The notes under the pieces are model-generated. The model did no database searches. It worked only from the letters and a program-made list of their open reading frames with translations, and was not told where the DNA came from. A program made the position numbers and the translations under genes. Of a stretch of 64,000 nt of DNA, positions 8,802 through 64,000 are shown piece by piece (positions within the stretch are counted from its first letter, which is position 1; every line of letters begins with the position of its first letter). Origin of the DNA: Amphibalanus amphitrite (taxonomy: Eukaryota > Arthropoda > Thecostraca > Balanomorpha > Balanidae). The stretch spans positions 868,001 through 932,000 of the forward strand of contig NW_024881518.1 in NCBI RefSeq assembly GCF_019059575.1. Reading direction: 5' to 3'.

Positions 8802-10550
8802 CTACCTACTTTTCTTGGCGATAGCGGCGCGTCCCGCCATCTTCGGGCACGTGCTGGCATGGCCGCGCAGGCCGGAGCGGTGCGCGTACGACCGGCCACA
8901 GTGCAGACACCGGAACGGACGTGAACCCGTGTGCTTGCGCTCGTGCACCTTGAGCGCATCACGTCGCGCAAACTCGCGCCCGCACTGCTGGCACTTGTGC
9001 GGCCGCTCGCCCGTGTGCGTGAGCAGGTGCGACTTGAGGTGACCGTTCTGGGAGAAGGTGCGGCCGCACTGTTCGCACATGAAGGGCCGCTGGGCCTCGT
9101 GCACGATGCGCGTGTGCGTATCAAGCTGCGACGCCAGCGCGAACCGTTTGCCGCAGCCGTCGCACTGGAAGTTCCGGTTACCGTGCGTCGTTCGCTCGTG
9201 GTTGTGCAGCGCGGAAGCGCGCTTGAACCATGCACCACACGTGGAGCACGTGTACGTGCCGGGTACGCGGGAGCTCGCCGAGCTCACCACGTGTTGCGTG
9301 CGCTGGTGCGCCTGCAAGTGGCCGCTCTGGGTGAAGGTGCGCTCACAGACAACGCAACGAAAGGGGCGCTCGCCCGTGTGGATGCGCTGGTGGACGTGCA
9401 GTGCCTGCGGCTCCTTGAAGGCACGGCCGCATTGCTCGCAGGTGTACGGCCGCTCGTTGGTGTGAGTACGCAGGTGGCTGGTCAGGTACTTGGAGAGTCG
9501 GAACACACTGCCGCAGTATGGACACATGTACGGTTTCTCGCCAGTGTGCACACGTTGATGCGCGGTCAGCTGAGAGAGCTTTTTGAAGCGCTTGCCACAG
9601 TAGCATTGTAGTTCGTCGTCAGCGGTTTGCGATGGCTCCTGGCTGGAGCTGGGGCCGTCCAGAGATTTCTGCGTCGACTGGGTCGCTCCACGACCGGTTG
9701 CAGTTGAGCTTGATGGTGTTTTGGGCTTCCCATGGTCAGATTGGCCAGCTGTCAGGTGCATGCCTTCCAGAGCAATGGCAGAATTTCTGGCTGCAGCCGA
9801 ATCGGAACCACCCTGCTGTGAATCTCGCGGTGTCTCCTCCGTTGGTGTCTCAGTGACTGTGGGTTGAGACGCACGGCCTCTGCTCCGGCCAGCTCGACAG
9901 CGTTGAGGCGGTGGTGTGGTGTCACTTTCGGCCGTGCTGGCGATGACGCTGACTTGCTCGGCTGGCTCTACAGTCGGGCTTCGCTCGGGAACTGCGACTG
10001 CGTCACCTCGTCCGCCACCCTCGCCACCCGTGACGCCACTCTGTCCATTGTCCTTCTTCAATTCCATTGGTGTCGTGCCTCCGTACTCGCCACCTCCCTG
10101 CGGTCCGCACTGTCGGTCGGTTGGGAACTTCACACTTCCATCAAACGGCTCTTCGGCTGAGGCCTCCTGATCAGTCCAGGAGCACACCAGTCCCCGAGAT
10201 CCGACCCGCAGGATCAGTGCCCCCACATAGCGCATGGCCAGCGAAAAGTGTCGGTGGTAGTTGTTGAGAAGGTCCGCGCATTTGTCGCAGACGAGTCGGG
10301 GTGCTGCCATCACCTGGGCGGCAGCAGGTCCGCCCAGCCGCAGCCGGCGCGCCACCTCCGACAGCGGGGTGGGTTCCGAGGAAGTGGAGGTCTTCTCCAT
10401 GTCCCAGTACTCGGTACCGGGAAGACGGCCGCTGCACACACAGCACGGTGGTGGCGGCGGCGCGGCGGCGGTCGGCGGCGCGCCGGAGACGGACATGACG
10501 CACCCGGAGGGAGGCCTCGGAGGGCTGCTGGTTACCGCACCAGCGGACAA
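8802..10550 (-). CDS. C2H2 zinc-finger transcription factor with ZAD-like N-terminus
   Basis: This intronless frame of 582 codons is a nuclear DNA-binding protein. Residues 36-39 (CCVC) and 88-91 (CDKC) give the paired CxxC arrangement of a ZAD, a dimerisation zinc domain found mainly in arthropods. Residues about 130-310 are a low-complexity, Ser/Thr/Pro-rich linker. From about residue 316 come nine C2H2 fingers (CYCG, CPYCG, CEQCG, CVVCE, CSTCG, CDGCG, CEQCG, CQQCG, CLHCG), most joined by TGEKP-type linkers. Fingers 4 and 5 are separated by a longer linker (HVVSSASSRVPGT). The last finger ends HxxxC rather than HxxxH. A short basic tail (IAKKSR) could act as nuclear localisation signal. DNA target and role cannot be read from sequence. 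Confidence 0.9.
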   Translation of the reverse strand: MSAGAVTSSPPRPPSGCVMSVSGAPPTAAAPPPPPCCVCSGRLPGTEYWDMEKTSTSSEPTPLSEVARRLRLGGPAAAQVMAAPRLVCDKCADLLNNYHRHFSLAMRYVGALILRVGSRGLVCSWTDQEASAEEPFDGSVKFPTDRQCGPQGGGEYGGTTPMELKKDNGQSGVTGGEGGGRGDAVAVPERSPTVEPAEQVSVIASTAESDTTPPPQRCRAGRSRGRASQPTVTETPTEETPRDSQQGGSDSAAARNSAIALEGMHLTAGQSDHGKPKTPSSSTATGRGATQSTQKSLDGPSSSQEPSQTADDELQCYCGKRFKKLSQLTAHQRVHTGEKPYMCPYCGSVFRLSKYLTSHLRTHTNERPYTCEQCGRAFKEPQALHVHQRIHTGERPFRCVVCERTFTQSGHLQAHQRTQHVVSSASSRVPGTYTCSTCGAWFKRASALHNHERTTHGNRNFQCDGCGKRFALASQLDTHTRIVHEAQRPFMCEQCGRTFSQNGHLKSHLLTHTGERPHKCQQCGREFARRDALKVHERKHTGSRPFRCLHCGRSYAHRSGLRGHASTCPKMAGRAAIAKKSR

Positions 10551-36998: not shown

Positions 36999-38654
36999 TC
37001 ACATCCAGTCCTCGTAGCGCGTTCCGAACGCGGCGATACTCTGCCACTGGGGATGGGTGAGGTTGTTCTCCTGACGCACGTGCACGTAGCGGCCGGCCAG
37101 CGGCACGTGGCACGTGAACCGGCGCGAGAACCCGGCCGCCACGAAGGTGCCCAGCTGGCGGTGACAGAGCGGCGCGTCGGCCCAGTCGTCGGGCCGAGAG
37201 CCGACGCGCAGCTCTGTCCACAGCACGTCTCCCGTCTGCGCGCCGGCCACGTAGAGCAGGCGCGTGACCAGCCGCCGGGCGCCCAGGTCGTAGCTCCACC
37301 AGGCCGTCTGCTCGCCGCTGGAGGTGGCCGGATGCTGCAGCGGCTCCGGAGCCTCCGCCAGCAGATCGTCGCCCACAAACTCGCACAGCTGGGGCAGGGC
37401 GAGCTCGCAGCCGACGTCGTGGAGTGTCCAGCCGCCAAAGCCGGACGCCACGCAATCCTCATCGTTTCCGTTATCCGGCTGAGAGGGGTACCAAAACGCC
37501 GATGAGGTGTTGAACTCGTCGCCATCCACAGTGACGAAATAACCCTCCTCGGCGCGTTCGTTGATGCCGATTCCAAACTTATAAACACCCTGGATACTGT
37601 AAGTTTCAAAGACGGTCTTAAGAGCGTCTGTCTGCCTGGGAACGTAGGTTATTCCACCCAGGTGGAGACAGGCATTGGCAGCGTCAGTGGCGAATGCGTA
37701 AGTGTCGGTGAGCCTCAGCCAGGATCCGGCCAGGTCGTCGTAGCCTTCCGGAGGGCTACCGTCGTCGCGGTCAAACTGCCACACGTAGCTGATGACGGCG
37801 GGGAGCGGCTCGGCACTGGGCTGCTGCTCGGCGGCCGGCCACTGGACGCACTGGCCGGCGCTGAACTCCACCGCCCAGCAGTCGACGGCGCGGCTGCACG
37901 CCCGCTGACACTCGGCCAGCGTGGGCTGCTGCTGCCGGCGCAGCGGCTGGCCGACCAGCAGCGTGCTGGTCAGCGGCACCCAGCGGCCGCCGTCGCGATG
38001 GCAGACCAGCGGTCCGTCCGGCCGCCAGCCGGGCCCGCACTGGCAGCTGCCCGGCAGAGCGGCCTCCTGGTGGCTGCAGTGCGCGCCGCCGGCCACCAGC
38101 AGGCGGCACTCGGCGTCTGAGGCGCACGGCTGGCCCAGCCAGCTGACGCCGCGCCGCCGGCCGCCGCTCCAGCCGTCCACACTCAGCCGGCTCTCACCGG
38201 CCCACAGCAGCACGTCGGTGAGGGCGCAGCTGCCGGCCGCCCAGTCGAACTCGAAGCCCAGACACCGCAGCTCGGCCAGACATCGGTGCTGGCACTGACA
38301 GGTCGAGTCGGCCGGAAACGTGGCGAAACGCGCCGCCTCCGGGAGCAGCTGCTGACCGGTGGCAATACCGGCGAACTGGTAGAACGAGGACGGCAGCGTC
38401 ATCTCCCTGCTCTTCAACATGTCCAGCGCCTCCGTCGGTAGGTGAGATAATGTATTTTCGCCTCTGGCAACATCCTTTTCATAGGTATTGTTCACAGTTA
38501 TTGTATTTTCATAGGTAATGTTTGTTGTCAGACCTTCTGCTAAAAGCAGCGTCGGGTCGGTCACTATCAACATCAGAAGCGGCATCATCATGATCGTCGA
38601 CAGCAGGCTCACGGCCTCCGGGAGGTGACGGTGCCGTCCGGGGCGTCTGACCAT
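36999..38654 (-). CDS. Secreted multidomain lectin, lectin-2 (inverted paralog of lectin-1)
   Basis: The 551-residue product has the same order as lectin-1: signal peptide, glycosylated linker, apple-like module, EGF/EB-like segment, second apple-like module, C-type lectin domain, fucolectin-like domain. I use the ATG at 38654, homologous to the lectin-1 start; the frame is open 43 codons further but those are not shared. Residues 1-302 differ from lectin-1 at about 12 positions. By contrast about 28 of the next 70 residues differ (first half of the C-type lectin domain), and one residue is inserted (QPDNGNDEDC versus QPNNENEDC). QPD is the triplet classically linked to galactose-type binding, while lectin-1 has QPN. 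Homology to lectin-1 spans about 38713 to the stop and ends there. The gene is intronless. A MITE cluster begins about 210 bp upstream of the start. Confidence 0.85.
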   Translation of the reverse strand: MVRRPGRHRHLPEAVSLLSTIMMMPLLMLIVTDPTLLLAEGLTTNITYENTITVNNTYEKDVARGENTLSHLPTEALDMLKSREMTLPSSFYQFAGIATGQQLLPEAARFATFPADSTCQCQHRCLAELRCLGFEFDWAAGSCALTDVLLWAGESRLSVDGWSGGRRRGVSWLGQPCASDAECRLLVAGGAHCSHQEAALPGSCQCGPGWRPDGPLVCHRDGGRWVPLTSTLLVGQPLRRQQQPTLAECQRACSRAVDCWAVEFSAGQCVQWPAAEQQPSAEPLPAVISYVWQFDRDDGSPPEGYDDLAGSWLRLTDTYAFATDAANACLHLGGITYVPRQTDALKTVFETYSIQGVYKFGIGINERAEEGYFVTVDGDEFNTSSAFWYPSQPDNGNDEDCVASGFGGWTLHDVGCELALPQLCEFVGDDLLAEAPEPLQHPATSSGEQTAWWSYDLGARRLVTRLLYVAGAQTGDVLWTELRVGSRPDDWADAPLCHRQLGTFVAAGFSRRFTCHVPLAGRYVHVRQENNLTHPQWQSIAAFGTRYEDWM

Positions 38655-39689
38655 GACGGCGGTCGGAGACCAACTGCTCAGGGAGGTGCGTCCATCGACC
38701 GAGCGACCGACCGTGTTCTGTAGCGTTGGGCTGGCGTTAGAGAGGCAGAACGGTAGCCTGGATACGAGCAGCCTTGTGACCAATGGTAGACGGTGCAGTC
38801 TTCAAATACGAGTATACACAGAGAGTTGGGAGGGGAGACGGCTCTTTGCGCTTTTGGCATCTTAACCCGCGCCCGGCTGGGGGTCCTGGATTTCCACGCC
38901 CTGCTGGGGGTGTTTGAACACCCCCTTCTAACTCGGCTCCTGGGCCACCTAGCGATACGCGGAAGGCGGCGTTCGAAAGAGCGCCAAAAATAATGACGAA
39001 ATCACTTCGGTCAATTTTTTGGTCAGGTCAAAGGTCAGGTCACCAGAGGTCATTGAAGGCAAAATTTCGCCGATTTCCAGGTCAAATGTCGACAATTTCC
39101 AGGAAGCCAACGCATAACTCGGGAACCAATAGAGCTACAGCGCCGCGGAAAAGCGCATTCGATAGCCCTATTAACGCCCTTTCTGAGTAATTCTCTCAGA
39201 TTTGACCTAACGTCAACGGTTTTGCCTGCAGGGGGCAAAAACTGCAAAAATAGCCGATTTTTTTCGAAAACAGTTTTCTGCAATAACTTTTGACCCAAGC
39301 CTTGTACGAGCTTACTTTTACCGGCATCGTGTTCCTCTCGTCAAGACGCATCGAATGAACTATAACTTTACCTTGAAAGGTCAATTTGAAAATTTGACCT
39401 TAGGTCAAGGCCATGACCTGACCGTTAAGGGTCATGTTGCATATCAGTCGATCCGTATCGTCGAGCTGAAGACATCTAAGGCGTTTTCACCGCTCTAGCA
39501 TGCCTCTATCAAAAGTTATTTGCGAAAAACTGCTAGACACCATTCGTGACCTGAGATGATCTCAGGGGCATAAACAGGGGTCACGGACACCATTTTCATG
39601 TTCAGTGTGTCTAAACCACTTGTAATTCAGTGTTTGGGAGTGTTTATAATGTCTTTCGTCCAAAAGAGGCCCATTTCAATTTTCTCCCA

Positions 39690-49690: not shown

Positions 49691-52600
49691 TCACTGTATC
49701 GCCCCGTTCCGCCCCCGCGGCTCGCGCAGCAGGCCCCCTCGACGGGTCGGAACCGCTACGGAGTTGGGGCGGAGCGAGGCAGATGGTGGCAATCGAAAGC
49801 GCACTCGTCTTGGTGTTCGCGTCGGGGTACTGCCGCTGTCTAGCCTGGTCGTCATCGTCGCTCGGCTGCTACGCGAGTCGGCTGTCGGCTCCTCTCGTGC
49901 AGCTTCCCTGTAGGCACGGGCAGAGAACTCGGCAGCAGAGGGCAGTCGTGCAGGCTTTAGGCGATTGATGGACACCGAATCAGTTTCACCAGAGGCTAGT
50001 TCGACAATGAAGAACTTGGTGAACCGTTTTACAACGCGCATTGGACCTATGTAGGGGGACTCAAGGGGGCGACGCACTCTATCTACACGTATCCAGACAT
50101 GCGAACAATTTGCTAGGTCCTTCGGAATATATACATCTTTTGCACTGCTGCCGTGGCAATGTCCTTCCGACATAGTACAGAAATCAATCTCATTCATTCG
50201 TCTGGCCAATTCACGGATAAAGTCATGACGGGAAGAACTCGATTCTCCGTCCACTGCGACTCTGGGGAACAGAAGCTGACTACCCGTAACGGCCGTAAAA
50301 GAAGACAAGCCCGAATCGTTCGGTAGGGCGCGAATCCCAAGCATTACAACCGGAAGAGCCTGGAGCCACTCCTGTTTTCGTGCCATTATCGCTGCCTTCA
50401 GCGTCCTGTGGCTCCTTTCGACTAACCCGTTCGAGCGTGGCGTATATGCAGTCGTTCGCAAACGGTGGAAACCTATCAAGGCTGAAAGGTGACTGAAAAG
50501 CTCGGACTCGAATTGACTTCCTCTGTCAGTCACCACATATAAAGGAACGCCGAAACGAGATATCCATACGTCAAGAAACGCCGCGGCTATACTCGCAGCT
50601 GAGATGTCAGTTAGCGGGGTCGCCTCCATCCAGCGCGTTGCCCTGTCAATGCATGTCAATAGGTATCGGTACGGAGACGAAAAGGGCTGGCCATTTTGGA
50701 AAGACGGCGGGAGAGGACCGACGATATCGATGTGAACGATTTCAAAACGACCGCAAGGAACGTCAAAAAGACCGTTTGCCGACTTCGTGTGGCGGTGTAC
50801 CTTGGCTTCCTGGCAAGATGTACACTCACGCACCCAGTCCTTGATCTGTTTGTTCATGTCGGGCCAAAAATAGCGAGCAGTTATGAGACGCTGAGACGCT
50901 CCCTGACCGGGATGTGACAAACCGTGCAGTTTGTCGAATACGGCACGACGGGACGCGCGCGGCACAAAAGGCCTGGGATGAGCGGTCGAGCAGTCACACC
51001 AAATCTCTCGACCATCGCCGAGCGGAAATGCCTTAAGCCGATGCCTGAAATCAGCTGTTTCGGGGTCATCCGTTTGCTGTTCGGCGAGAGAGGTCAGGTC
51101 ATGCGTATCGACTCGAATAGCGTTTACTGGACGAGACAAACAATCGGCTACCACATTGTCCACCCCTCTGACGTATTCTACTTCAGCAACATATTCAGTG
51201 ATCACGCACCAGTGGCGCTGCTGTCTGTCAGACTTTGCTGGTTTCTGACTATGAAAAGCGGTGGTCAGTGGCTTATGATCTGTGAATAAGATCACATGTC
51301 GCCCGTCGATGATATTTTTGAAATGTAAGGTCGCCAGGTAGGCTGCTAGCAATTCCCTATCGTATGTGGAGTATTTCTGTTGGGCGCTGTTCAGCTTCTT
51401 GGAAAAGAATGCTACTGGTACTGGCTGTCCATCAACCACCTGATGAAGAGCAGCTCCCACAGCTACTAGAGATGCGTCGGTAACTAAATGATATGACTGG
51501 CCGACTGGTAACGGATGCTTTAGCATGGTAGCATTTACTAGCGCTGTCTTTGCGTTATCAAATGCCTCTGTTTCTTCATCTCCCCATGGAAGTTGCTTGT
51601 TTTTTGGATGAAGTCTGATAAGTTCCGTCAGCGGGAACACAAGCTCGGCGAAGTGAGGTATCATCCGCCGATAAAAACCGATCATGCCCAGGAATCGACG
51701 AAGTCCGTTCGAATCAGTCGGCTGCACGAATTCAGCGACTGCTGACACCTTGTGTGGGGCTGGCTGGACTCCCTGAGCGGTGATACGATGGCCCAGGAAA
51801 TCGATCTCCGTCTGGAAAAATGAGCATTTGTCCAGCGACACCCTCAGTTGATGCTCGTGGAGTATCTTGAATACTGCATCGAGATCTCGCTGGTGGGTTT
51901 CGTCGTCAGGTGAGAAGACAAGGATATCGTCCAAGTAGTTGAAAACACAATCTAAATCTCTAAACAGACTATCCATGAATCTCTGGAAACTCGCGCCGCT
52001 ATTGCGGAGACCCATCGGCATATAAAGCCACTCATATTTGCCGAAGGGAGTTGTCACGGCGGTTTTCTGAATGTCGTCCTGGTTCATGGGTATTTGATGA
52101 TACGCGCGGAGCAAATCTATCTTTGAAAATCTGCCCTTACCGTGTAGGTTAGAGGAGAAGGTCTGAATGTGTGGTAACGGGTACCTGTCAGGTTTCGTCA
52201 AAGAATTAAGAGCTCGGTAATCGCCTGTCACACGCCAGTGTCCGGGACTGTTCTTCGGCACCATGTGCAAAGGAGAAGACCACGGTGAGTTGGAGGGCCG
52301 GATAATGCCAGCCTGTAGAAGTGTTGAAAAAGATTCCTTGGCTGCTTTCAGTTTATCAGGAGGCAGTGGACGCGGACTGGAAAAGGTCGGCGGAGCACTA
52401 CCCGTGTATATAGTGTGCCTGGTATGAATAGGAGTCTGCTGCAAATCAGCAGCCTTCTGCGGATTGAGGACGGCGGGATACTTGTGAAAGAGCGCCTGGG
52501 CCGGCGCCGCTAAATGCGATAGATCATTTGCGATCAGATTCGCGCTCGTGCTGGACGCTGTCAGGACCGAGCAGCGAATCGAAGTTACTGAATCTGTCAG

Positions 52601-52951
52601 TGTTTGTGACCCACAGTCTACAATCAGTTTGAATGTCGCGAGAAAATCGTTCCCAAGGATAGGATCTGTCACATCAGCGACAACGAACGTCCAAGGGAAA
52701 GTTCGACGCAAGGAGGGTATTTCGACATCGATAAGGATTTCACCGTAAATTCGAAGGGGCTGTCCTGTGGCAGTCGATACATGTACGGCTGAAGGAGAAA
52801 GATGCTTACGAGTTACCAAGTCGCGTGGTAAAAGTGAAATGCCGGCGCCAGTGTCAACAAGAAATGACAACTTAGTTGACCCGACATTGGCTGCGACCTT
52901 GAGTAGTGGCAGACCCTGCGCAGCATTTACAGCCTGCCGTTGTAGTTTCCC
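49691..52951 (-). CDS. pol: Gypsy-1 Pol polyprotein
   Basis: The frame encodes retropepsin (FLVDTGAG), reverse transcriptase ([18 protein letters not shown], catalytic YLDD at about residues 312-315 counted from the TTG at 52870), and RNase H ([26 protein letters not shown]). The integrase follows, with a zinc-binding HHCC region (HGLSHPGQ...CTSCQ) and DDE core ([23 protein letters not shown]). About 1060 residues from the protease. There is no proper ATG: the frame is open back into gag and is reached by a -1 shift at GGGAAAC (52945-52951). Acts in reverse transcription and integration within virus-like particles. It appears intact. Confidence 0.9.
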
Positions 52952-53751
52952 GGTTCTGATTGTTCGGCTGCTGGGGTAGAGTCCCTATATCTAACTGGCG
53001 TCCTGCCCCTCACACTTTTACCAGGCCACGTACACCAGGGGCGGCACGTGCGGGCATGGGGACCGTAAAAGATGTGAGCCCGGCACACTTTAGGTGGCTG
53101 TCCGTCATGGTATGGCTCGAGGTCCCTTCCCTGGCCGCGTCGATCAGCTGATCGGGGTCGTTGACCCCTAGCAGCCGGTGAGATGCCTCTTTGAGGGGAA
53201 CGTGAACTGCCGTGAGATTCTACCGGGTGAGCGGCTACTACGGTCTGCTTTTGAACGAGAGGAACGAGCTCGTCGGCTAGCTTCCCCATCTGTGACAGGG
53301 TAAGGTCTCGTTGAGCAGCCAGGACCGTGCTCATGGCAGAAGGAAGAGACTGAATGAATTTGTGCCTGACCAGGTCATCTCCGACTCCTACCTTCGAAGC
53401 AATCTCCCTCAGCTCTCCCAAAAACTCTGAAGGACGTCCGGTCATGACATTTTTGGAGATGAGTTTTTCGAAGAGTTCGGGCTTAGTTTTCTCAAACATC
53501 TCTACCACGACACATTTTAGGTTAGAAAAGTTTTGACCAGCAATCACAGAAGGATCGACCCTAGCTACCACATCCGCGGGAAGAGATGCCAAGACATGAA
53601 AGAACTTCGTGGTATCACAAGTAACATTCGCAAGATGGAATTGGGCGTCAAGAATCGCGAACCAACCTGATACAGCAGTCTCCATAAACGGTGGCGGTCG
53701 AACAGACATCTTTGTTTCATTCTGGTCTCCTCTCTCTCGGTTTCTTGACAT
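52927..53751 (-). CDS. gag: Gypsy-1 Gag
   Basis: The 274-residue protein begins [10 protein letters not shown], with [20 protein letters not shown] typical of the matrix/capsid start in this group of gypsy elements. It has a leucine- and helix-rich capsid middle and a basic Arg/Ser-rich C-terminus. A zinc-knuckle-like motif, [18 protein letters not shown], is of the CxxH...C...C type rather than the classical CCHC knuckle. Packages element RNA. Overlaps pol in the -1 frame. Confidence 0.85.
52945..52951 (-). promoter_or_regulatory. -1 ribosomal frameshift site GGGAAAC
   Basis: The minus strand reads G GGA AAC in the gag frame, the canonical X XXY YYZ pattern, eight codons before the gag stop at 52927-52929. 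The pol frame is the -1 frame. Confidence 0.75.
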
Positions 53752-55611: not shown

Positions 55612-55652
55612 TTAATCCATCGGGGTCGAAATGCTCCTGATGCCAGTGCTAT

Positions 55653-55870
55653 TGTTACGGGCCGCCCCTGGGCGGGCGCCCGGCGCCGCCCGTGGCGCGG
55701 GCCGCCCCTGGGCGAGCGCCTGGCGCCGCCCGTGGCGCGGCCCGGCGAGTGGTCGCGGCGCCGCCGCCCGGCTGGCGGCGGCTGGGGAGTGGGCGCGCCG
55801 CGGCGAGCGGGCAGTCGGTCGCGGGACGCGGAACGGGGTGTTGTGCCTGTAATATATGTGCCTGTAATAT
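55653..55870 (+). repeat. Candidate Gypsy-2 5' LTR
   Basis: Starts TGTTACGG and ends TGTAATAT immediately before TGGCGCGGTCGGTAGGAC, which is placed like a primer-binding site. Contains a GC-rich 41 bp unit repeated twice (55659-55741). No 3' copy is present in the window, so the assignment is tentative. Confidence 0.4.
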
Positions 55871-55898
55871 TGGCGCGGTCGGTAGGACACCACTAGAG

Positions 55899-55904
55899 GT
55901 AAGC
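55899..55904 (+). promoter_or_regulatory. Candidate splice donor in the Gypsy-2 leader
   Basis: CACTAGAG|GTAAGCC is close to the consensus AG|GTAAG and lies upstream of gag, as for subgenomic env mRNAs of retroviruses. Confidence 0.55.
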
Positions 55905-56217: not shown

Positions 56218-57306
56218 ATGGACTTTAATGACACCATCCTGGTATCACGCACTCCGCGGTTCGCGGGGCTGTACACGGATGACTGGGAGGGATGGATAGC
56301 ACGGTTCGAGGCGCTGACGTCTGAGCACGAGGACGAGGGACGGTTAAAACGTCTCCTGCCGTTGTTGGACGGTCTGGCCTCGGATTGTGCGCAATCACAG
56401 TTGAAACTTAACAAATCGTACTGCGAGGTACGGAAGCACCTGGGTGAGCGTTTCGGTAGATCCGTCGATCCACTGGAGGCGCGGGCAGCGCTCGGTGGGG
56501 TGCGTCAAGCACCAGGAGAGACGGTGGCAAATTTTGCAGACCGCATCGGGAAACTCGGCCGAGCCGCATTTCCATCACAGGCGGCAGCGCCCGGGTCGAA
56601 AGGGTCCGGCTCGACTGAACCGAGAAAGTTTCTAGATGAGGATTTGGCGAGCCGACTCATCTGTGGGCTGCGGGATGAGTGGCTTCAGGCCAAATTGTGT
56701 CACCGGAGGCCAGGGTCCCTGTCCGAAGCAGTGTCTATCGTGAACGAGCTGAACAAGCGCCAGGAGGTGGTCCAGGCGGTGCGGGCGGCTGGCCGGTCAC
56801 CTGTGACTCAGCAAGGCTGTTCAGGCGTTCGGTCGGCGGTGGCGGCGGTTGACGCTGAGCCAGACCGGGTCGACGCAAGCTGCAGCGACGGCCGGGTAGC
56901 TCAGTTGGAACAGGAGATAGCCAATCTCAGGTATTCGATGGAGACACTAGTAGCTGCTGCCAGCTCCCGAACAGGTTCAGAGCTGTCGAGAGACATATCT
57001 TGTTACAGGTGTGGAGCGCCAGGGCATATGCGACGAGACTGCCCGGCGGCTCGCCGCGCTCAGCCGAGGTCTGGTACCGGTGACGTCATTTGTTTCTGCT
57101 GTGGAGAAAGGGGACACATTCGGATTGACTGTCCGTTCAAGGAGCCTGGGAGGGGTCCACGTCACCCGTTCTGTCTAGCCTGTGGTCGCAGCGGTCACTG
57201 GATGGCGGCTTGCCGTTCTCTCACGGACCACGTGACCCGTTCAGCGCAGGGCAGACGGCAGACTGCACCAACGAAGTCCACTGACAACAGGCAGCCGGAA
57301 AACTAG
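56218..57306 (+). CDS. gag: Gypsy-2 Gag
   Basis: 362 residues from the ATG at 56218 (MDFNDT; an earlier in-frame ATG at 56182 adds 12 residues in a weak context). The capsid region (WEGWIARFEAL, LASRLICGLRDEWLQAKL) has the look of Ty3/gypsy Gag. Three CCHC zinc knuckles follow near the C-terminus: CYRCGAPGHMRRDC, CFCCGERGHIRIDC and CLACGRSGHWMAAC, for RNA packaging. The ORF ends GAA AAC TAG; pol is in the -1 frame, and the GGAAAAC at the stop may serve as a non-canonical shift site. Confidence 0.85.
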   Translation: MDFNDTILVSRTPRFAGLYTDDWEGWIARFEALTSEHEDEGRLKRLLPLLDGLASDCAQSQLKLNKSYCEVRKHLGERFGRSVDPLEARAALGGVRQAPGETVANFADRIGKLGRAAFPSQAAAPGSKGSGSTEPRKFLDEDLASRLICGLRDEWLQAKLCHRRPGSLSEAVSIVNELNKRQEVVQAVRAAGRSPVTQQGCSGVRSAVAAVDAEPDRVDASCSDGRVAQLEQEIANLRYSMETLVAAASSRTGSELSRDISCYRCGAPGHMRRDCPAARRAQPRSGTGDVICFCCGERGHIRIDCPFKEPGRGPRHPFCLACGRSGHWMAACRSLTDHVTRSAQGRRQTAPTKSTDNRQPEN

Positions 57307-57320
57307 GGGCAGCTGGTTCA

Positions 57321-60300
57321 GTGGGGCGAGAGTCAGCTGCTTCTCACCAGTCCCGGTTCACCGCAGCCGCCGTCAGGGTGAAAATCGGTAGTCTTGAGGC
57401 GTGGGCACTCATTGATTCTGGCGCAGATTTCTCGATGGTGAGGTGCGGCTTACATCAGCGCATCAAGGTGGAGTTGGGCTGTAAGTCAACCACCCCTTCG
57501 CGGTCTGCGAAGGGAGCGGGTGGGAGTCCGCTGGTGATCACGGAGGTACTCTGTGATGTCCCGATGTCGATCTCCGGAGAGACATTCGGATGTTCTCGAC
57601 TGGCAGCGGTGGCTGGTCTGGTGTATGACGTGATTCTCGGTCGAGATTTCTGTTGTCAGCATCGCACCATCATCGATGACGAAGAGGGAGTTTTTCGTAT
57701 CAAAGGGTTGAAAATTTCCCTTCCCACGTACCCAGAGATTCGAGCTTCCCGAGCTAAGGTTGTTCTGGCAGGGACGGTGACTATTCCGGGTCGCTCGATC
57801 CTGACAGCTGCAGCGGTGGTTGAACCGCTGGATGGATCCGGCGTAGCTGTGGCAGAGACGCCCATGACCGGGATGGTGGAGCCGAGCCCTGCAGCCGACT
57901 GGGACTCACTGTTGATACCGAGAGCTGTTGTTGCTGTCGCGACCGACGGCACAGTGCCCATTCAATTTTCGAACGTCGGGACAGAAGACGTTCGACTGCT
58001 GAAAGGCTCAGACGTGGGAACATTCTTCTCGATGGGAGACTCGTTGGGAGACATGTGTGAACTGTGTCCAGAGCCGGACGACGTGGTTGACGCGGTGGCG
58101 AGCTGCGAAGGTGGAGGTTTTCCACCGGAGGCAGCTGAAGATATCGATCCGGACGTGAAGCAGGCGCTGGAACCCGGTCTGACTGATCTCGGGGAACATG
58201 GTCAGGGGAGGCTGCGCGGCTTGTTCGAGAAATATGCCGATGTCTTCAGCTGGCGTCCCGGAGATATTGGTCAGACGAATCTAACCAGACACAAGATCGA
58301 TACTGGTGATGCTAGTCCCATCAAACAAAGACCACGGCGGGTGCCGCTGAAGGTGCGTGACCAGGTGGAGAAGCAGAAGAAGAAGATGCTACAGGATGGG
58401 ATCATCGAAGAAAGCGAAAGTCCCTGGTGCTCTCCAGTGGTACTGGTTCGCAAGAAGGACGGAACCTTCCGCTTCTGTGTTGACCTGAGAGCAGTGAACA
58501 GAGTGACGAAAGGCTTCGCGATGCCACTCCCTCGAATTGACGACTCTCTCGACACCCTGGCTAAAGCGAGGTGGTTCACCACGCTGGATATGGCCACGGG
58601 ATATTGGCAGGTGGAGTTGGCACCTGAGGATCGAGAAAAGACGGCGTTTTCGACGGGCAAGGGGCTACATCACTTCAGAGTGATGGCAATGGGCCTGAAG
58701 AATGCGAGCGGCACGTTCCAGAAGTTGATGGAAATGATCCTGGCGGGTCTGGACACAAAAAGTTGCCTAGTGTACCTGGATGACGTCATCCTGTTCAACA
58801 GGACGGAGGAAGAGCATCTGGCCACTTTACAAGAGGTGTTCGAGCGGATCCGAGCGGCGGGACTGAAGCTCAAGGCGCAAAAATGTCGCTTCGCTCGCAA
58901 AGAAGTGACGTTCCTCGGCCACCTAGTCTCCGAAGAGGGAATCCGGCCAGATCCACGTAACGTGGAAAAGGTACTGGCATGGCCACATCCATCATCCGAC
59001 GAAGAGATGAGGAGTTTTCTCGGTCTGTGCGGGTACTACGCACGCTTCATCCAAGGATATGCGGCAATCACAAAGCCTCTGCGAGACGCCACGGTGGCGG
59101 ACGGTCAAATCAGGTGGACGGAAGCGATGCGAGGAGCCTTCGAGCAGCTTAAGTCCGTCCTGGCCACGCCGCCGATCCTGACGCTACCAACTGGCAAGGG
59201 GACGTTTGTCCTGTACACCGATGCCTGCAACTTCGCGGTTGGCGTTGTCTTGACTGAGAAGACAGGGGAGTATGAGCGGGTGGTCGCCTATGAGAGTAAG
59301 GCGCTGTCGAAGCAGCAGGTGAAATGGCCCACCTACGACAAAGAGCTCTGGGCTGTGGTCCACGGCATCAGACATTTCCGGCAATATACAGTTGGAGCCA
59401 AGTTCGAGGTAGTGACTGACCACGAACCTCTGGCAAACATCCCTGATTCGATCTCGGTGGAACGTGATGGCACAGGACGTCGAGGACGCTGGGCGGTCGA
59501 GCTAAGCTCCTTCGACTTCATGGTTCGGGTCCGCAGTGGGGTGAGGCATGGCAATGCGGATGCACTATCGAGGAGGCCATCTGGGGTGTCCGTCGATGAG
59601 GGCAATGGTGGTCTGGCTGGGGATGCCGGCATGTCGCGAGCAATGGGCGGATCAGTCCCGACGGCTGGCGGTTCGCCAACACCGTCACGGTCCACGGCGG
59701 CTTCGCCGACAGGGAATGCGGCGATCTCTGGGGTAGGAGGGTCACCATATTCCGTGATCACCTCTGTAGCACCCGCCACATTATCGTCAGGGCCGACAGA
59801 CAGGGTGAACCCGGCGACAAAGACGTTGACGCCCCCCTCCGCAGTCGGGGAGAAACGATCAACCGAGTCGCTGCTGCTGGAGGCCCAACAAGACGATCCA
59901 ACGTTATCGGCGTTGTGTCGGGCAAGGGAGGAGGGGAGGATGCCTAAATCCACAGAGACGAGCGGTTGGGCCGTCTTGAAGAAGCACTGGGGACAAGTAG
60001 AGGTTCGCTCAGGAGTGTTAGGAATTGCCAGCAAGCAACGTTTCCAGGCGGCCGTGCCCAAGGCAATTCAAGCTGAAATCATCAGACTCGCCCACGATGA
60101 CAAATCCAGTGGTCACATGGGTCGGAGGCGGACCATCGCTCGGGTAAAAGCCCGGTTCGTGTGGCCGGGGATGAACGAGGACGTCCGCAGCTACTGCGCC
60201 TCGTGCACACAATGTCAGCGACGCTGTAGGCCTGCCCCGAGCAGGCGTGCACCATTGGTGACTGAGGTGACGTCTCGCCCCTTTGAGAGGGTTGCCATGG

Positions 60301-61394
60301 ACATCACGGAGATGCCTCTTTCCTCAAAAGGAAACAAATACGCACTCGTGATCATGGATTACTTTTCAAAGTACGTGAGAATTTACCCAATGCCAAATCA
60401 GAAGACGGAGACAGTCATGGATGCCTTCCTAGACTGGGTCCAAGAGCTTGGTGTCCCGGAGAGGCTACACACTGATCAGGGCGCACAGTTTGAGTCTCTG
60501 ATGATGAAGGAGATGTATACGAGACTCGGTATCCACAAGACTAGGACAACACCCTATCACCCGCAGAGCGACGGCATGGTCGAGCGCTTCATGCGTACAC
60601 TAAAGGACATGGTTTCGAAATACGTCGATGGCCAAGGCTTGAGCTGGGATGAGGGAGTCATGTCCTACGCCATGGCGTACAACTCGTCCCTCCACGAAAC
60701 TACCGGGTACACCCCATTCTATTTGATTCATGGCTTCGAGCCTCGGGTACCGCTGGACGTGGTGTATGGCCCCGAAACTGACCCAATCCCGACCAGGACG
60801 TTCCTTAACAGTCGGCTGAAGACAATGAAACGGGCATATGCTCGTGTCAAAGAAGCCACGTCCAAAGCAGCTGCTCGGATGGCGGTTCGCCACGATAGCA
60901 GAGTCAATCACACTGCCTATCCTACAGGAACGAAAGTGTGGGTGCGAGATCACACGGCCGCCGTCGGCGGGAAGCCGAAACTGGGTCTGCCGTATAAGGG
61001 ACCGGTGACCATCATCGGTAACCGTGGGGGGCGAGATGAAACAACATATAAAATTCAGGACGAGCGCGGCAAAGTACGTCAGGTTCACTACAATGACCTG
61101 AAGGAGTTTGTGCCACGGGTGTCTGGCATTCAGGAAGGGACTACCAAGCGCCACACTCAGGGACCAGATATGACTAAGGAAATGACTCAGGAACATGACA
61201 CGGGGATCCGGGAGTGGATACCCAATGAGGATCACACAACTGGCTTACAAGTACCATTCATGCCATTCGTAAGGGCCGGCGGGTCCGCCGGAGGGACCCA
61301 TCGGGAGCAGCAGGGTGGGACACCCCAAGGGTACTACATAACGCGAACCGGGCGGGTGTCAAGGCCGCCCGCATACTATCAGGCGGGACGATGA
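57321..61394 (+). CDS. pol: Gypsy-2 Pol polyprotein
   Basis: About 1357 residues from the first usable codon (a GTG; the frame is open into gag and is probably entered by a -1 shift). It contains a protease with DSGAD (about 32-36), reverse transcriptase with YLDD (about 486-489), and RNase H (YTDACNFAVG, TYDKELWAVVHG). The integrase has an HHCC zinc region (about 925-965) and D...D35E core (DITEMP about 993, TDQGAQF about 1052, VERFMRTLKD about 1087). The C-terminal GPY/F-like module reads LPYKGPVTIIGNRGG. The 3' end is a Gly/Arg-rich tail. All catalytic motifs are present. Ends TGA, followed in frame by a TAG and then the ORF3 ATG. Confidence 0.92.
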   Translation: MGRESAASHQSRFTAAAVRVKIGSLEAWALIDSGADFSMVRCGLHQRIKVELGCKSTTPSRSAKGAGGSPLVITEVLCDVPMSISGETFGCSRLAAVAGLVYDVILGRDFCCQHRTIIDDEEGVFRIKGLKISLPTYPEIRASRAKVVLAGTVTIPGRSILTAAAVVEPLDGSGVAVAETPMTGMVEPSPAADWDSLLIPRAVVAVATDGTVPIQFSNVGTEDVRLLKGSDVGTFFSMGDSLGDMCELCPEPDDVVDAVASCEGGGFPPEAAEDIDPDVKQALEPGLTDLGEHGQGRLRGLFEKYADVFSWRPGDIGQTNLTRHKIDTGDASPIKQRPRRVPLKVRDQVEKQKKKMLQDGIIEESESPWCSPVVLVRKKDGTFRFCVDLRAVNRVTKGFAMPLPRIDDSLDTLAKARWFTTLDMATGYWQVELAPEDREKTAFSTGKGLHHFRVMAMGLKNASGTFQKLMEMILAGLDTKSCLVYLDDVILFNRTEEEHLATLQEVFERIRAAGLKLKAQKCRFARKEVTFLGHLVSEEGIRPDPRNVEKVLAWPHPSSDEEMRSFLGLCGYYARFIQGYAAITKPLRDATVADGQIRWTEAMRGAFEQLKSVLATPPILTLPTGKGTFVLYTDACNFAVGVVLTEKTGEYERVVAYESKALSKQQVKWPTYDKELWAVVHGIRHFRQYTVGAKFEVVTDHEPLANIPDSISVERDGTGRRGRWAVELSSFDFMVRVRSGVRHGNADALSRRPSGVSVDEGNGGLAGDAGMSRAMGGSVPTAGGSPTPSRSTAASPTGNAAISGVGGSPYSVITSVAPATLSSGPTDRVNPATKTLTPPSAVGEKRSTESLLLEAQQDDPTLSALCRAREEGRMPKSTETSGWAVLKKHWGQVEVRSGVLGIASKQRFQAAVPKAIQAEIIRLAHDDKSSGHMGRRRTIARVKARFVWPGMNEDVRSYCASCTQCQRRCRPAPSRRAPLVTEVTSRPFERVAMDITEMPLSSKGNKYALVIMDYFSKYVRIYPMPNQKTETVMDAFLDWVQELGVPERLHTDQGAQFESLMMKEMYTRLGIHKTRTTPYHPQSDGMVERFMRTLKDMVSKYVDGQGLSWDEGVMSYAMAYNSSLHETTGYTPFYLIHGFEPRVPLDVVYGPETDPIPTRTFLNSRLKTMKRAYARVKEATSKAAARMAVRHDSRVNHTAYPTGTKVWVRDHTAAVGGKPKLGLPYKGPVTIIGNRGGRDETTYKIQDERGKVRQVHYNDLKEFVPRVSGIQEGTTKRHTQGPDMTKEMTQEHDTGIREWIPNEDHTTGLQVPFMPFVRAGGSAGGTHREQQGGTPQGYYITRTGRVSRPPAYYQAGR

Positions 61395-61404
61395 ATGAGT
61401 CCAG

Positions 61405-61418
61405 CTTTCTAGTTTCAG
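61405..61418 (+). promoter_or_regulatory. Candidate splice acceptor directly before ORF3
   Basis: CTTTCTAGTTTCAG|ATGGAG: a pyrimidine-rich stretch and AG exactly before the ORF3 start codon, fitting a subgenomic mRNA that joins the leader donor at 55899 to ORF3. Confidence 0.55.
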
Positions 61419-62537
61419 ATGGAGCGCATGCGGCAGGAGATCGATCGCCTATGGTCGGCCCTCGAAGAGGAGAGGGAGCAGAGGCGGCGGGAAGTGGCCG
61501 AAGTACGTGCCGCCCTGGAGGCTGTCCAGCAGCAGGAGGACATCGCGCTCCCCATCGGCGCCGGAGCGGTTGGTGGACCATCGACGACGACCGGCTTGCT
61601 CACGGGTGATGCGCAGCGGTCTGTAGAGTATCTGCCGCCGCTGTCTCCGACGTCCGCCGTGTTAGCCGGTGTCTCCACACCCCCGTTCGTGACTACCCTG
61701 CTAGAGGCGGGCGCAGGAGATCCTGTGCGTGACCATCTGTCTCCGCTGGCGGTCGACCTGGTGGAGACTGACACAACGGACCTGCTAAGTGAGCTGCTGG
61801 GTGTCGAGGCGCAAGAGTTCGAGGAGTTTTCGAACATGGAGCTGCAGGACGAGAAGCCGCGGGAGGAGACGCCCACAGACGGGTCGCCGGAGGAGGTGGT
61901 AGTTGGTGAGGCCGACGGGGCGTCCGGCGGTTCGCCGGAGGCTGGTCGCGCGGAAGCCGTCCTTCTCATCGGGGACTCGATCCTGCACAGAACAGACGTC
62001 CGTTGCGACCCACCCCGAAGCCTCACCATCCGGGCCATACCGGGGTACACACTGCGCCGCTGGGTGGCTGAGGGGGTCATGGAGGTGCGGAGGTGGTTGG
62101 ATGGCCTTCATCCTGACACCTCCAGTGCCCAAGTAATCCTGTGGGTAGGAGGAAACGATGTGTACCCGAAGGACGCCATCAAACTACCAGAGGGGATGAA
62201 GACGCGGTTGATGAAAGAAGTTCAGGACCGGATCGGAGAAATACAGAGGATGGGAGTGCACGTCACACTCGTGGGCACCCAGCCGCGGCTGTCCCGGGAT
62301 CGGGGCCGACAATGGGAAGAGACGCAAGCCTATGAACTCGAGAAGTCTCTCCGCCAAATCAAGAAGGCTACGGGAGCTGCCGTCATCCCGCTGGGGCGGC
62401 GACTCTGTTGCCGCCACGGCAAGCGACGGGTGTATAAGGTGGCAGAGGGGCTCCATCTCGCGGACGGCGTACATCTGAACAAGAGGGGCTACGGGTGCAT
62501 CAGTTTGTCATTCCCCAAGTGGCTCCGCATGCGTTAA
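61419..62537 (+). CDS. Gypsy-2 ORF3: coiled coil plus SGNH/GDSL hydrolase domain
   Basis: This 372-residue protein sits in the env position. Residues 1-40 form a charged heptad-rich coiled coil (MERMRQEIDRLWSALEEERE). Residues 41-178 are low-complexity and acidic. Residues 180-360 carry the SGNH-hydrolase blocks in order: block I LLIGDSIL (Ser187 nucleophile), block II IPGYTLRRW (Gly209), block III VGGNDVY (Asn246) and block V ADGVHLNKRGY (Asp349, His352). All catalytic residues are present, so it may be an active esterase or acetylhydrolase. No signal peptide or transmembrane segment is visible, so it is not a normal envelope glycoprotein. It is in the pol frame, separated by two stops, and starts right after a splice-acceptor-like sequence. 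Similar esterase domains are known in ORF1 of CR1-type LINEs and in some tyrosine-recombinase retroelements. How common they are in gypsy elements I cannot check. Confidence 0.85.
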   Translation: MERMRQEIDRLWSALEEEREQRRREVAEVRAALEAVQQQEDIALPIGAGAVGGPSTTTGLLTGDAQRSVEYLPPLSPTSAVLAGVSTPPFVTTLLEAGAGDPVRDHLSPLAVDLVETDTTDLLSELLGVEAQEFEEFSNMELQDEKPREETPTDGSPEEVVVGEADGASGGSPEAGRAEAVLLIGDSILHRTDVRCDPPRSLTIRAIPGYTLRRWVAEGVMEVRRWLDGLHPDTSSAQVILWVGGNDVYPKDAIKLPEGMKTRLMKEVQDRIGEIQRMGVHVTLVGTQPRLSRDRGRQWEETQAYELEKSLRQIKKATGAAVIPLGRRLCCRHGKRRVYKVAEGLHLADGVHLNKRGYGCISLSFPKWLRMR

Positions 62538-62560: not shown

Positions 62561-62936
62561 GCGGTCGTTCGGGTGGCGGCCCGTGCATCCGTACATGTAT
62601 GTAGCAGCGGCTGAATGTGTGTGTTCTTTTGGTGTTGAGGTGTCTCACTTTCGTTCTGGGGCGGCGCAAGTACCTTTTTTTTTTGTTTCGTTAAGCGAGC
62701 AAGGAGCGGCTCGACTCAGTAGTAGTATGGAGGCTGTGGTGTCGCGAGCTGCTCCCCCCCTGCCCCGGGGCCTGGCGACGCCATTGGCGGCGCCGGCGCG
62801 CAGACGCGGGGTTCGAGAGCAGTCGGCCGCCGGCCCGCGCGGGGTGCGGTTGCGGTAGTAGCGATCGGTGTTTGGCGCTCAGGGAAGTTTAACGCAATGC
62901 AGCTTTGGTTGTGAATAAAGAACTCACGTTATAACA
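62561..62936 (+). repeat. Probable Gypsy-3 5' LTR (left end unresolved)
   Basis: The right end is placed at ATAACA (62936), three bases before TGGCGACAAGGATGAG, which looks like a primer-binding site. AATAAA at 62914-62919 sits where an LTR poly-A signal should. The LTR start was not located with confidence. Confidence 0.4.
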
Positions 62937-62939
62937 TCC

Positions 62940-63792
62940 TGGCGACAAGGATGAGATCAAGGTGAAGCCTTGGAGCTGTGATTGCGAGTGATGGCGAAAC
63001 GGGCCAGTGATCAGTGCGCGGTGGTCAGCGAGAGCGGACAGGCCACGGACGGTGAGGGCGCAAACGTTGCTTAGTACGAATGCTTAGTGCTTAGTATTGC
63101 TTAGTATTTTTATTTTCGCGCTGCTGCTGGTAGTGTGCCTGTCGCGCGGCGGCCGTTGTCCTGGTCCTGGCAGGGTTTTCCATGTGATCGCCGAAATTCG
63201 TGGCGGCCATGATGCCTCGGCAGTGTGGTGTGCGTGCGTGGCGCATGCGTCGGCGTGCTGCACGCTGATTGGTCGGCCGGGGGTGACGCGCAGCTGTGGC
63301 AGCGCGTGTGATTGGCCGATCGGTGCGGCGGAGAGGGCCTCAATGCGGTTTGAGGTGCCTGGTCCCCGAAGCGGGTAATTTCGGCGGGAAGCTGGCGCGC
63401 GGCCGGGCGGTGCGGGACGAGTGCGCATGCGCGCGCGGTGACGTGCGTGTGACGTCACTACCACGTGACGCCCCCGTCGAGAAAAGCGCGGGAAACCGCA
63501 GCTGCAGCGCCAAGTACAGGCGCAGGGCGGCGCGGTGAGCGGTGGCCGACCGGCGTGTGCGGTGACCGACCGGCGTGTGCGGTGACCGGCCGGTGTGAGC
63601 GGTGACCGGCCGGTGTGAGCGGTGACGCCCGGCTGCGGGCCGACCGGTGGAGCGGCTGCGGGCCGCCGGTGGAGCGGCTGCGGGCCGACGGTGGAGCGGC
63701 CGCGGGCCGACGGTGGAGCGGCTGCGGGCCGACGGTGGAGCGGCGGCGAGCCGACCGGAGAAACGACGTGCTGGTGAGAGGGCGGCGGCACG
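62940..63792 (+). other. Gypsy-3 leader with tandem repeats
   Basis: GC-rich leader between the primer site and gag. 63536-63625 repeats a 20 bp unit like GGTGTGAGCGGTGACCGGCC. 63630-63750 repeats a 20-21 bp unit like GCTGCGGGCCGACGGTGGAG about five to six times. Confidence 0.6.
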
Positions 63793-64000
63793 ATGGATCC
63801 AACGGGGATGCAGATAGTGTCTGCGGTGCCGTACCGTCCAGGCACGGACTTTGAAAAGTGGCTCCGGGCATTGGAGCGGTATATGATCGCTGTTGACATT
63901 CAAGGGCCTGCGAGACGGTGTGCAGTCCTGTTGCACCTGGTGGGCCCGGACCTCGCCGATGTCAGCGATTCACTGCCTGAGGAGGACGCCGAGAGACAGG
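63793..64000 (+). CDS. gag: Gypsy-3 Gag, N-terminal part (cut by window end)
   Basis: An ATG at 63793 opens a frame running off the window: MDPTGMQIVSAVPYRPGTDF, then EKWLRALERYMIAVDI and RRCAVLLHLVGPDLADV. This is the usual start of a Ty3/gypsy Gag capsid region. It is a different family from Gypsy-1 and Gypsy-2. No stop in the 69 visible codons. Confidence 0.75.
   Translation, partial: MDPTGMQIVSAVPYRPGTDFEKWLRALERYMIAVDIQGPARRCAVLLHLVGPDLADVSDSLPEEDAERQ

Follow-up and report, generated by a model that had tools for sequence, protein, structure and literature searches.

A young three-gene gypsy retrotransposon of Amphibalanus amphitrite with an SGNH hydrolase ORF behind pol, and a sister lineage in which ORF3 and gag-pol lie on separate elements

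Introduction

Why should a gypsy retrotransposon carry a gene for an esterase-like enzyme behind pol, and by what route would such a gene be expressed? The question is raised by a 64,000-nucleotide stretch of the Amphibalanus amphitrite genome, referred to here as the window (C21:868001-932000), in which pol is followed by an ORF resembling SGNH/GDSL hydrolases (ORF3). SGNH enzymes, which are membrane- or ester-active, recur in unrelated retroelements, namely LINEs, Penelope-like elements and LTR elements. The genome searched for relatives is the 807.6-Mb assembly of 2644 contigs. On balance we favour, with moderate confidence, a joint reading in which the element is a young three-gene gypsy retrotransposon, ORF3 encodes a cytosolic esterase that is made from a spliced RNA and serves as an accessory factor, the ORF is old in its clade, and a sister lineage has split it from gag and pol.

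Anatomy and age of the element

The element starts at 55653 and is of the Ty3/gypsy type, with a 217-bp LTR, a presumed primer site, a leader, gag, pol and ORF3. In window coordinates its features are:

55649-55652: target-site duplication CTAT; its partner lies past the 3' LTR, outside the window
55653-55869, + strand: 5' LTR, TGTTAC...GTAATA, matching the 3' LTR (C21:936749-936965) in 217 of 217 bases
55871-55888, + strand: presumed primer binding site TGGCGCGGTCGGTAGGAC; in L021, L030 and L032, too, the LTR is followed by this sequence
55896-55904, + strand: splice-donor-like GAG/GTAAGC, first of 429 GT sites by score; the intron would begin at 55899
56218-57306, + strand: gag, with zinc knuckles (zf-CCHC in Pfam, two stretches)
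57285-61394, + strand: pol, with protease, RT, RNase H and integrase in this order; frame open from 57285
61405-61418, + strand: splice-acceptor-like CTTTCTAGTTTCAG, adjoining the ORF3 ATG; second of 477 AG sites by score
61419-62537, + strand: ORF3, 372 aa, with a coiled-coil helix (61422-61544), a disordered linker (about 61545-61940) and an SGNH hydrolase domain (about 61941-62534)
62730-64000, + strand: GAGGC duplication (62730-62734) and, from 62735, the start of a different, nested LTR element

The beginning of the pol frame overlaps the end of gag in a different reading frame. The preliminary description had recognised a gypsy element, and the order of protease, RT, RNase H and integrase, the zinc-knuckle gag, the paired LTRs, the presumed primer site and the 4-bp duplications bear this out. 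It had also placed the end of the element within the window, which has to be corrected. Another LTR element is inserted into the 3' untranslated region at 62734/62735, with duplication of GAGGC, and extends to C21:936513; the remaining 3' region and the 3' LTR occupy C21:936514-936965 and are followed by the matching CTAT. Because the 3' LTR sits beyond this nested element, a first repeat scan found no LTRs, and the reading of the element as one without LTRs was dropped once the 3' LTR had been located.

Seven further long copies of the family (L009-L015) and two fragments (L016, L017) were read. The family's LTR terminates in TA, not CA. Leaving aside L011, whose 3' LTR is rearranged, all seven copies in which both LTRs were compared have 4-bp target-site duplications, and the LTR pair is identical in six of them, with one mismatch in 263 in the seventh. 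Among the eight long copies, gag and ORF3 are open in every one and pol is full length and open in six, the other two having suffered one deletion and one insertion, respectively. That ORF3 might be a chance ORF or a misassembly is ruled out by its being open in 8/8 long copies. Since identical LTR pairs and 4-bp duplications mark the family as recent, the window element is, judged by sequence, a recently active three-gene Ty3/gypsy retrotransposon.

The window holds other ORFs as well. A different gypsy element lies at 49691-53751 (- strand), whose pol measures 1059 aa (RT, RNase H, integrase) and whose gag-side ORF contains DUF7041; none of the scored ORF3 matches falls on it. Two ORFs of 550 and 594 aa, at 6485-8137 (+) and 36999-38783 (-), contain PAN and C-type lectin domains and perhaps represent another repeated family. 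An ORF of 582 aa at 8802-10550 (-) encodes a C2H2 zinc-finger protein with six zinc-finger stretches.

ORF3 encodes a putative SGNH hydrolase with a coiled coil

ORF3 is open from its ATG over 372 codons and begins 24 bases past the pol stop (61392-61394). In Pfam it matches Lipase_GDSL_2 (PF13472) with an E value of 8.3e-9 and 36.6 bits, above the curated cutoff of 32.9; four of seven related ORF3s fall under the cutoff (E 2e-6 to 0.06), and one more is at 5e-7. The catalytic assignment made earlier (Ser187, Gly209, Asn246, Asp349, His352) is confirmed: these residues are invariant in six aligned ORF3s, and the corresponding columns are invariant in 10/10 ORF3s with identities of about 26-52 %. 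The predicted structure has the three-layer SGNH fold. The coiled coil that had been noticed corresponds to a predicted helix at residues 2-42 (pLDDT 71-92 in blocks of ten), with hydrophobic residues at 8 of 12 a/d positions in the best register. On these predictions, the window ORF3 combines an intact SGNH hydrolase with a coiled coil at its N-terminus, and a putatively disordered linker connects the two.

A PDB search with ORF3 gave no match at E<=1, and a search with the ORF3 profile A1 gave two matches, both insignificant. Protein database searches with ORF3s returned 5, 5 and 6 matches, which are too few for a phylogeny over hosts and include no rotifer-named protein. The ORF3 of a related element is identical in 399 of 403 residues to a database protein from Amphibalanus amphitrite.

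According to the preliminary description, a captured esterase had replaced env. This claim is not supported. Hydropathy, the sole basis used here for such signals, reveals neither a signal peptide nor a transmembrane anchor in ORF3 (window maximum 1.15 over 19 residues), and among the relatives only L022 and L026 have 19-residue averages above 1.6, in both cases inside the catalytic domain. The window ORF3 has no furin-like site, no env precursor was seen, and the association of the SGNH ORF with these elements is old, as described below.

Within the linker a motif, D-x-(I/L/V)-L-x-x-(I/L)-L-G, recurs at the same place in relatives (TDLLSELLG at 61779-61808 in the window) and twice in the short family of ORF3-only elements, in a region that is otherwise unconserved; a short helix is predicted at residues 121-126. 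The motif could bind a partner protein.

Age and distribution of ORF3 in the gypsy clade

A genome search with ORF3 gave at least 110 matches (110 scored of 247 candidates). The comparison with other gypsy elements that the preliminary description had proposed showed that pol is followed by an SGNH ORF in five further families of this genome (L023, L024, L025, L033 and L026). Their pol proteins are 54-60 % identical to that of the window in L023, L024, L025 and L033 (only a piece being available for L024) and 33-34 % identical in L026, so the association must be old. A search for integrase (85 scored of 4794 candidates) was paired with 71 of the 110 ORF3 matches. Among these scored matches, ORF3 lies downstream of integrase in 7/7 cases of the window type and 11/13 of the 51 % type, and in none of the 69 % type (0/38), the 52 % type (0/19) or the others (0/8). 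Comparison by eye of the other 39 ORF3 matches with the integrase matches gave no further pair. Elements of the L030 and L032 types, which have no ORF3 themselves, have multiplied, from which it follows that ORF3 is not needed in cis.

Trees of pol and ORF3, built with relatives from this genome only, both support a group of the window family with its sister lineage and a group of L023 with L024, which L022 joins in the ORF3 tree. Well-supported groups agree between the trees; the remaining branches are left open, and L026 sits on a long branch. Between the SGNH domains of the window and sister-lineage (short) ORF3s, 87 of 191 residues are shared, and identities at codon positions 1, 2 and 3 are 104, 132 and 72 of 191 (54/69/38 %), a pattern that points to amino-acid constraint on ORF3 between families. 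Among the eight young copies, ORF3 shows 14 nonsynonymous and 7 synonymous-only codons (pN/pS 0.69), too little change to show selection; the figures are 15 and 5 codons for gag (pN/pS 1.02) and 24 and 28 codons for pol in six copies (pN/pS 0.28). In these alignments, constraint on ORF3 is visible only between families and not among near-identical copies. We infer that ORF3 has long belonged to this gypsy clade and descended along with pol, and that certain lineages have lost or lack it.

At 27-35 % identity there are numerous other SGNH ORF families, several of which have 2-4 open copies that are nearly identical (the groups C61/C284/C1704/C1528 and C972/C174/C163/C2118 are examples). One locus, L034 (C749:40300-48700), has an SGNH-like frame that runs into an assembly gap. 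It was dropped as a family member since it matches neither gag nor pol of the window, and it possibly belongs to another class of retroelement with an SGNH gene.

A sister lineage with ORF3 on a separate element

New here is a sister lineage whose genes are split between a gag-pol-only element and an ORF3-only element. In the 69 % lineage, as read in L030, gag and pol are present and about 110 bp separate the pol stop from the 3' LTR, which leaves no ORF3. The other half is represented by L021, a 2.8-kb element with identical 246-bp LTRs, the same primer site as the window element, a donor, an acceptor and an intact SGNH ORF3 of 403 aa. Its interior also contains gag remnants with stops and a scrap resembling the end of pol, and in their first 150 bp the LTRs of L021 and L030 share 94 % identity. 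The ORF3 of this short family is present in 16 full-length copies in the genome, 99-100 % identical and open in 16/16 (DNA search, 28 of 28 candidates scored). The window family itself comes next among the DNA matches, at 70-71 % over about 150 bp, so the genome DNA search found no three-gene element carrying the short-family ORF3 type.

A second ORF3-only element, L022, is one match among the 110 scored and groups with L023. Its LTRs are 88 % identical (about 12 % different) and its duplication is alike in three of four bases; it is either an old copy that was kept open or an element with LTRs of different parents. The SGNH ORF of L022, 504 aa at 3204-4715 (- strand) of the locus, is open and has internal repeats of 126 bp. 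At L032 (C765:242500-251300), a tandem of two ORF3-less elements has its three LTRs at positions 823, 6431 and 6674 when the locus is read in reverse.

Splice-like signals and ORF3 expression

A donor AGAG/GTAAGC in the leader (55895-55904) and an acceptor-like sequence ending at 61418, directly before the ATG, had been pointed out in the preliminary description, and both are indeed present. They were ranked with matrices of approximate frequencies, unfitted to the host. By the same matrices the donor of the short element ranks 1/169 and its acceptor 3/138. An AG lies 0-2 nt upstream of the ORF3 ATG in all seven families first read, and within the surrounding 3 kb the acceptors of these families rank 1/219, 4/161, 2/201, 3/253, 3/242, 16/222 and 1/226. 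With L033 added, an acceptor score of at least 1.5 within 0-2 nt of the ORF3 ATG is seen in 6/8 families against 4/599 other ATGs from the same stretches, a comparison in which the cutoff was chosen after the scores had been seen and the binomial P assumes independence. The two exceptions are L025 (score -1.17, rank 16/222) and L033, where TTTCAG is found 37 nt upstream of the ATG.

On the donor side, a good site is found no more than 80 nt from the primer site in 6/8 mapped families (window, short, L030, L022, L023's family and L033), or in 5/6 mapped families that have ORF3; it is missing from L025's family and from the ORF3-less L032. L030 retains the donor though it has no ORF3. The count covers families with a mapped LTR and a read 5' end, so that L029, the 5' side of L026, whose LTR is unmapped and in which no TGGCGCGG primer site occurs, and L024, whose 5' end is unread, stand outside it. 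Probes for the splice junctions of two families were absent from the 37 loci examined, which is a weak negative. The comparison supports conservation of the donor and acceptor layout in the relatives of the window element, and production of ORF3 from a spliced subgenomic RNA, although inferred, is well supported by it.

LTR exchange between the two elements

Three loci combine the parts of the two sister-lineage elements; they come from a genome search in which 40 of 174 candidates were scored. L035 and L036 have an ORF3-only interior (99.1-99.5 %) between L030-type LTRs (57/58 and 55/58 diagnostic columns). Conversely, L037 has a gag-pol interior, 99.7 % identical to L030, between hybrid LTRs whose diagnostic columns are of the L030 type in the first 7 and of the short type in the remaining 51, a pattern common to both LTRs. 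In each of the three the LTR pair is identical and flanked by a 4-bp duplication (TAAA, TATC and CTTA, respectively). Both LTRs of an insertion are synthesised afresh in one reverse transcription. Template exchange between two RNAs in one particle is thus the simplest explanation for these identical, fresh LTRs, and the LTRs of L037 suggest that the short RNA supplied the strong-stop piece. Gene conversion could alternatively have altered both LTRs, but this would take two matching events. On this simplest explanation, exchange in both directions implies that gag-pol and ORF3-only RNAs share particles. Because the ORF3-only element has no pol, it is likely moved in trans by the gag-pol element or a relative.

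Another locus, L031 (C474:11000-20000), reads in the order long LTR, short ORF3 body, short LTR, long pol end, long LTR, with CATG on both sides. It was rejected as a product of co-packaging and not counted, since its inner short LTR is complete including U5, which fits a nested insertion followed by an LTR-LTR deletion better. At C22:1197368-1198780, two short-family LTRs face each other about 0.9 kb apart.

Proposed mechanism and alternatives

In the scheme that we favour, the full-length RNA would be translated into Gag and Pol, and joining of the donor just past the primer binding site to the acceptor at the start of ORF3 would yield a subgenomic ORF3 mRNA, much as retroviral env is produced. 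The protein would be a cytosolic, self-associating enzyme acting at particle assembly or exit as an accessory factor rather than as a fusion glycoprotein. Its substrates may be membrane lipid esters or, less likely, acetylated glycans; lipids are the first guess because ZfL2-1, a LINE protein with the same layout of coiled coil and SGNH domain, binds phospholipids. In the sister lineage, ORF3 would reside on an element of its own, and the RNAs of this element and of its gag-pol-only partner would be packaged into shared particles.

Other readings of ORF3 differ in how it is made, where it acts and whether it acts at all. Translation of ORF3 on the full-length RNA, whether through internal entry or by reinitiation downstream of pol, would make the splice-like sites incidental. 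The 24 bases between pol and ORF3 in the window family would suit it, as would L025's family, which has ORF3 together with a weak acceptor and no good donor by the primer site. We nevertheless regard it as improbable given the concentration of acceptor-like sites at ORF3 ATGs, the donor's first rank among the element's GT sites in the window and short families alike, and the position of the short-family ATG some 950 bases behind the LTR, past broken gag remnants with stops. Slightly less credible still is an extracellular role as an env substitute, in which a receptor-destroying or membrane-opening esterase would serve cell-to-cell spread; the hydropathy profile and the missing furin-like site speak against export, and a coiled coil at the extreme N-terminus suggests a cytosolic multimer. 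Least probable of all is a functionless passenger that is open merely because its copies are young. The near-identity of the LTR pairs and the pN/pS among window-family copies would be expected of it, as would the similarity of the 16 short-family copies, and in simulations a neutral 403-codon ORF stays open with a chance of 0.31 (1 % divergence, 10 % indels). For the bdelloid ORFs, likewise, the text available of PMC5408684 reports that evolution within a genome did not deviate significantly from neutrality. However, catalytic residues that are invariant at such low identities, together with the codon-position pattern, need long-term constraint, and the ORF3-only elements retained ORF3 while losing gag and pol.

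For the sister lineage the choice is closer. The ORF3-only element may be a mere non-autonomous parasite of the gag-pol element, with an ORF3 that is intact through recency and of no benefit to the partner, and we give this reading nearly an even chance. Non-autonomous derivatives of LTR elements are common, the short family is recent, and L032-type elements amplify with no recognised ORF3-only partner. Against it, L022 kept its long ORF despite the divergence of its LTRs, and the short-family ORF type is on no other element in the genome DNA search. The bolder reading, which we put forward tentatively and consider the less probable, is a two-component retrotransposon in which both RNAs share particles and exchange LTRs while the esterase serves both in trans, like a two-segment genome. 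If the LTR-exchanging pair is in truth mutually dependent, it would clearly exemplify the division of a retroelement genome into two parts. With families that have ORF3, lack it or consist of it alone, a single genome makes the role of the esterase testable by comparison.

Comparison with known systems

GDSL ORF3s in LTR retrotransposons of bdelloid rotifers were already published in 2017, and ORF3s in general are typically expressed from spliced messages, according to the available text (Rodriguez et al., PMC5408684). The bdelloid Vesta is, as far as that text goes, the closest likeness: it has gag, a PR-RT-RH-IN pol and, after pol, an SGNH/GDSL ORF with intact catalytic residues, a resemblance in described features. 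As described there, however, Vesta GDSL ORF3s have no coiled coils, in contrast to the helix 2-42 with heptads of the window ORF3, and members of Juno, Vesta and TelKA carry a dUTPase (PMC5408684), for which the window pol gives no Pfam match. TelKA2n, a non-autonomous bdelloid family, bears some similarity to the short family; its ORF is env-like and not SGNH, and the available text describes neither an ORF-less gag-pol partner nor LTR exchange (PMC5408684).

The arrangement of a coiled coil followed by an SGNH esterase is otherwise that of ORF1p in CR1/L2-type LINEs, such as ZfL2-1, which is reported in the accessible part of its description to be active and to bind negatively charged phospholipids (PMC3905857). 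There, the ORF is upstream of pol in a non-LTR element, whereas the window ORF3 is downstream of pol in an LTR element and is probably spliced. The OSK domain of Drosophila Oskar (5a4a) is described, in the source as available, as a non-catalytic SGNH domain, while ORF3 keeps its catalytic residues. The open-licence papers searched, in the portions accessible, mention no SGNH ORF3 in arthropod gypsy elements and no pair of ORF3-only and gag-pol-only elements. The esterase described here would be a long-lived, catalytically conserved third gene in a young arthropod gypsy clade. In view of the bdelloid precedent its novelty is smaller than the preliminary description had implied, and it is larger through the unforeseen pair of an ORF3-only and a gag-pol-only element.
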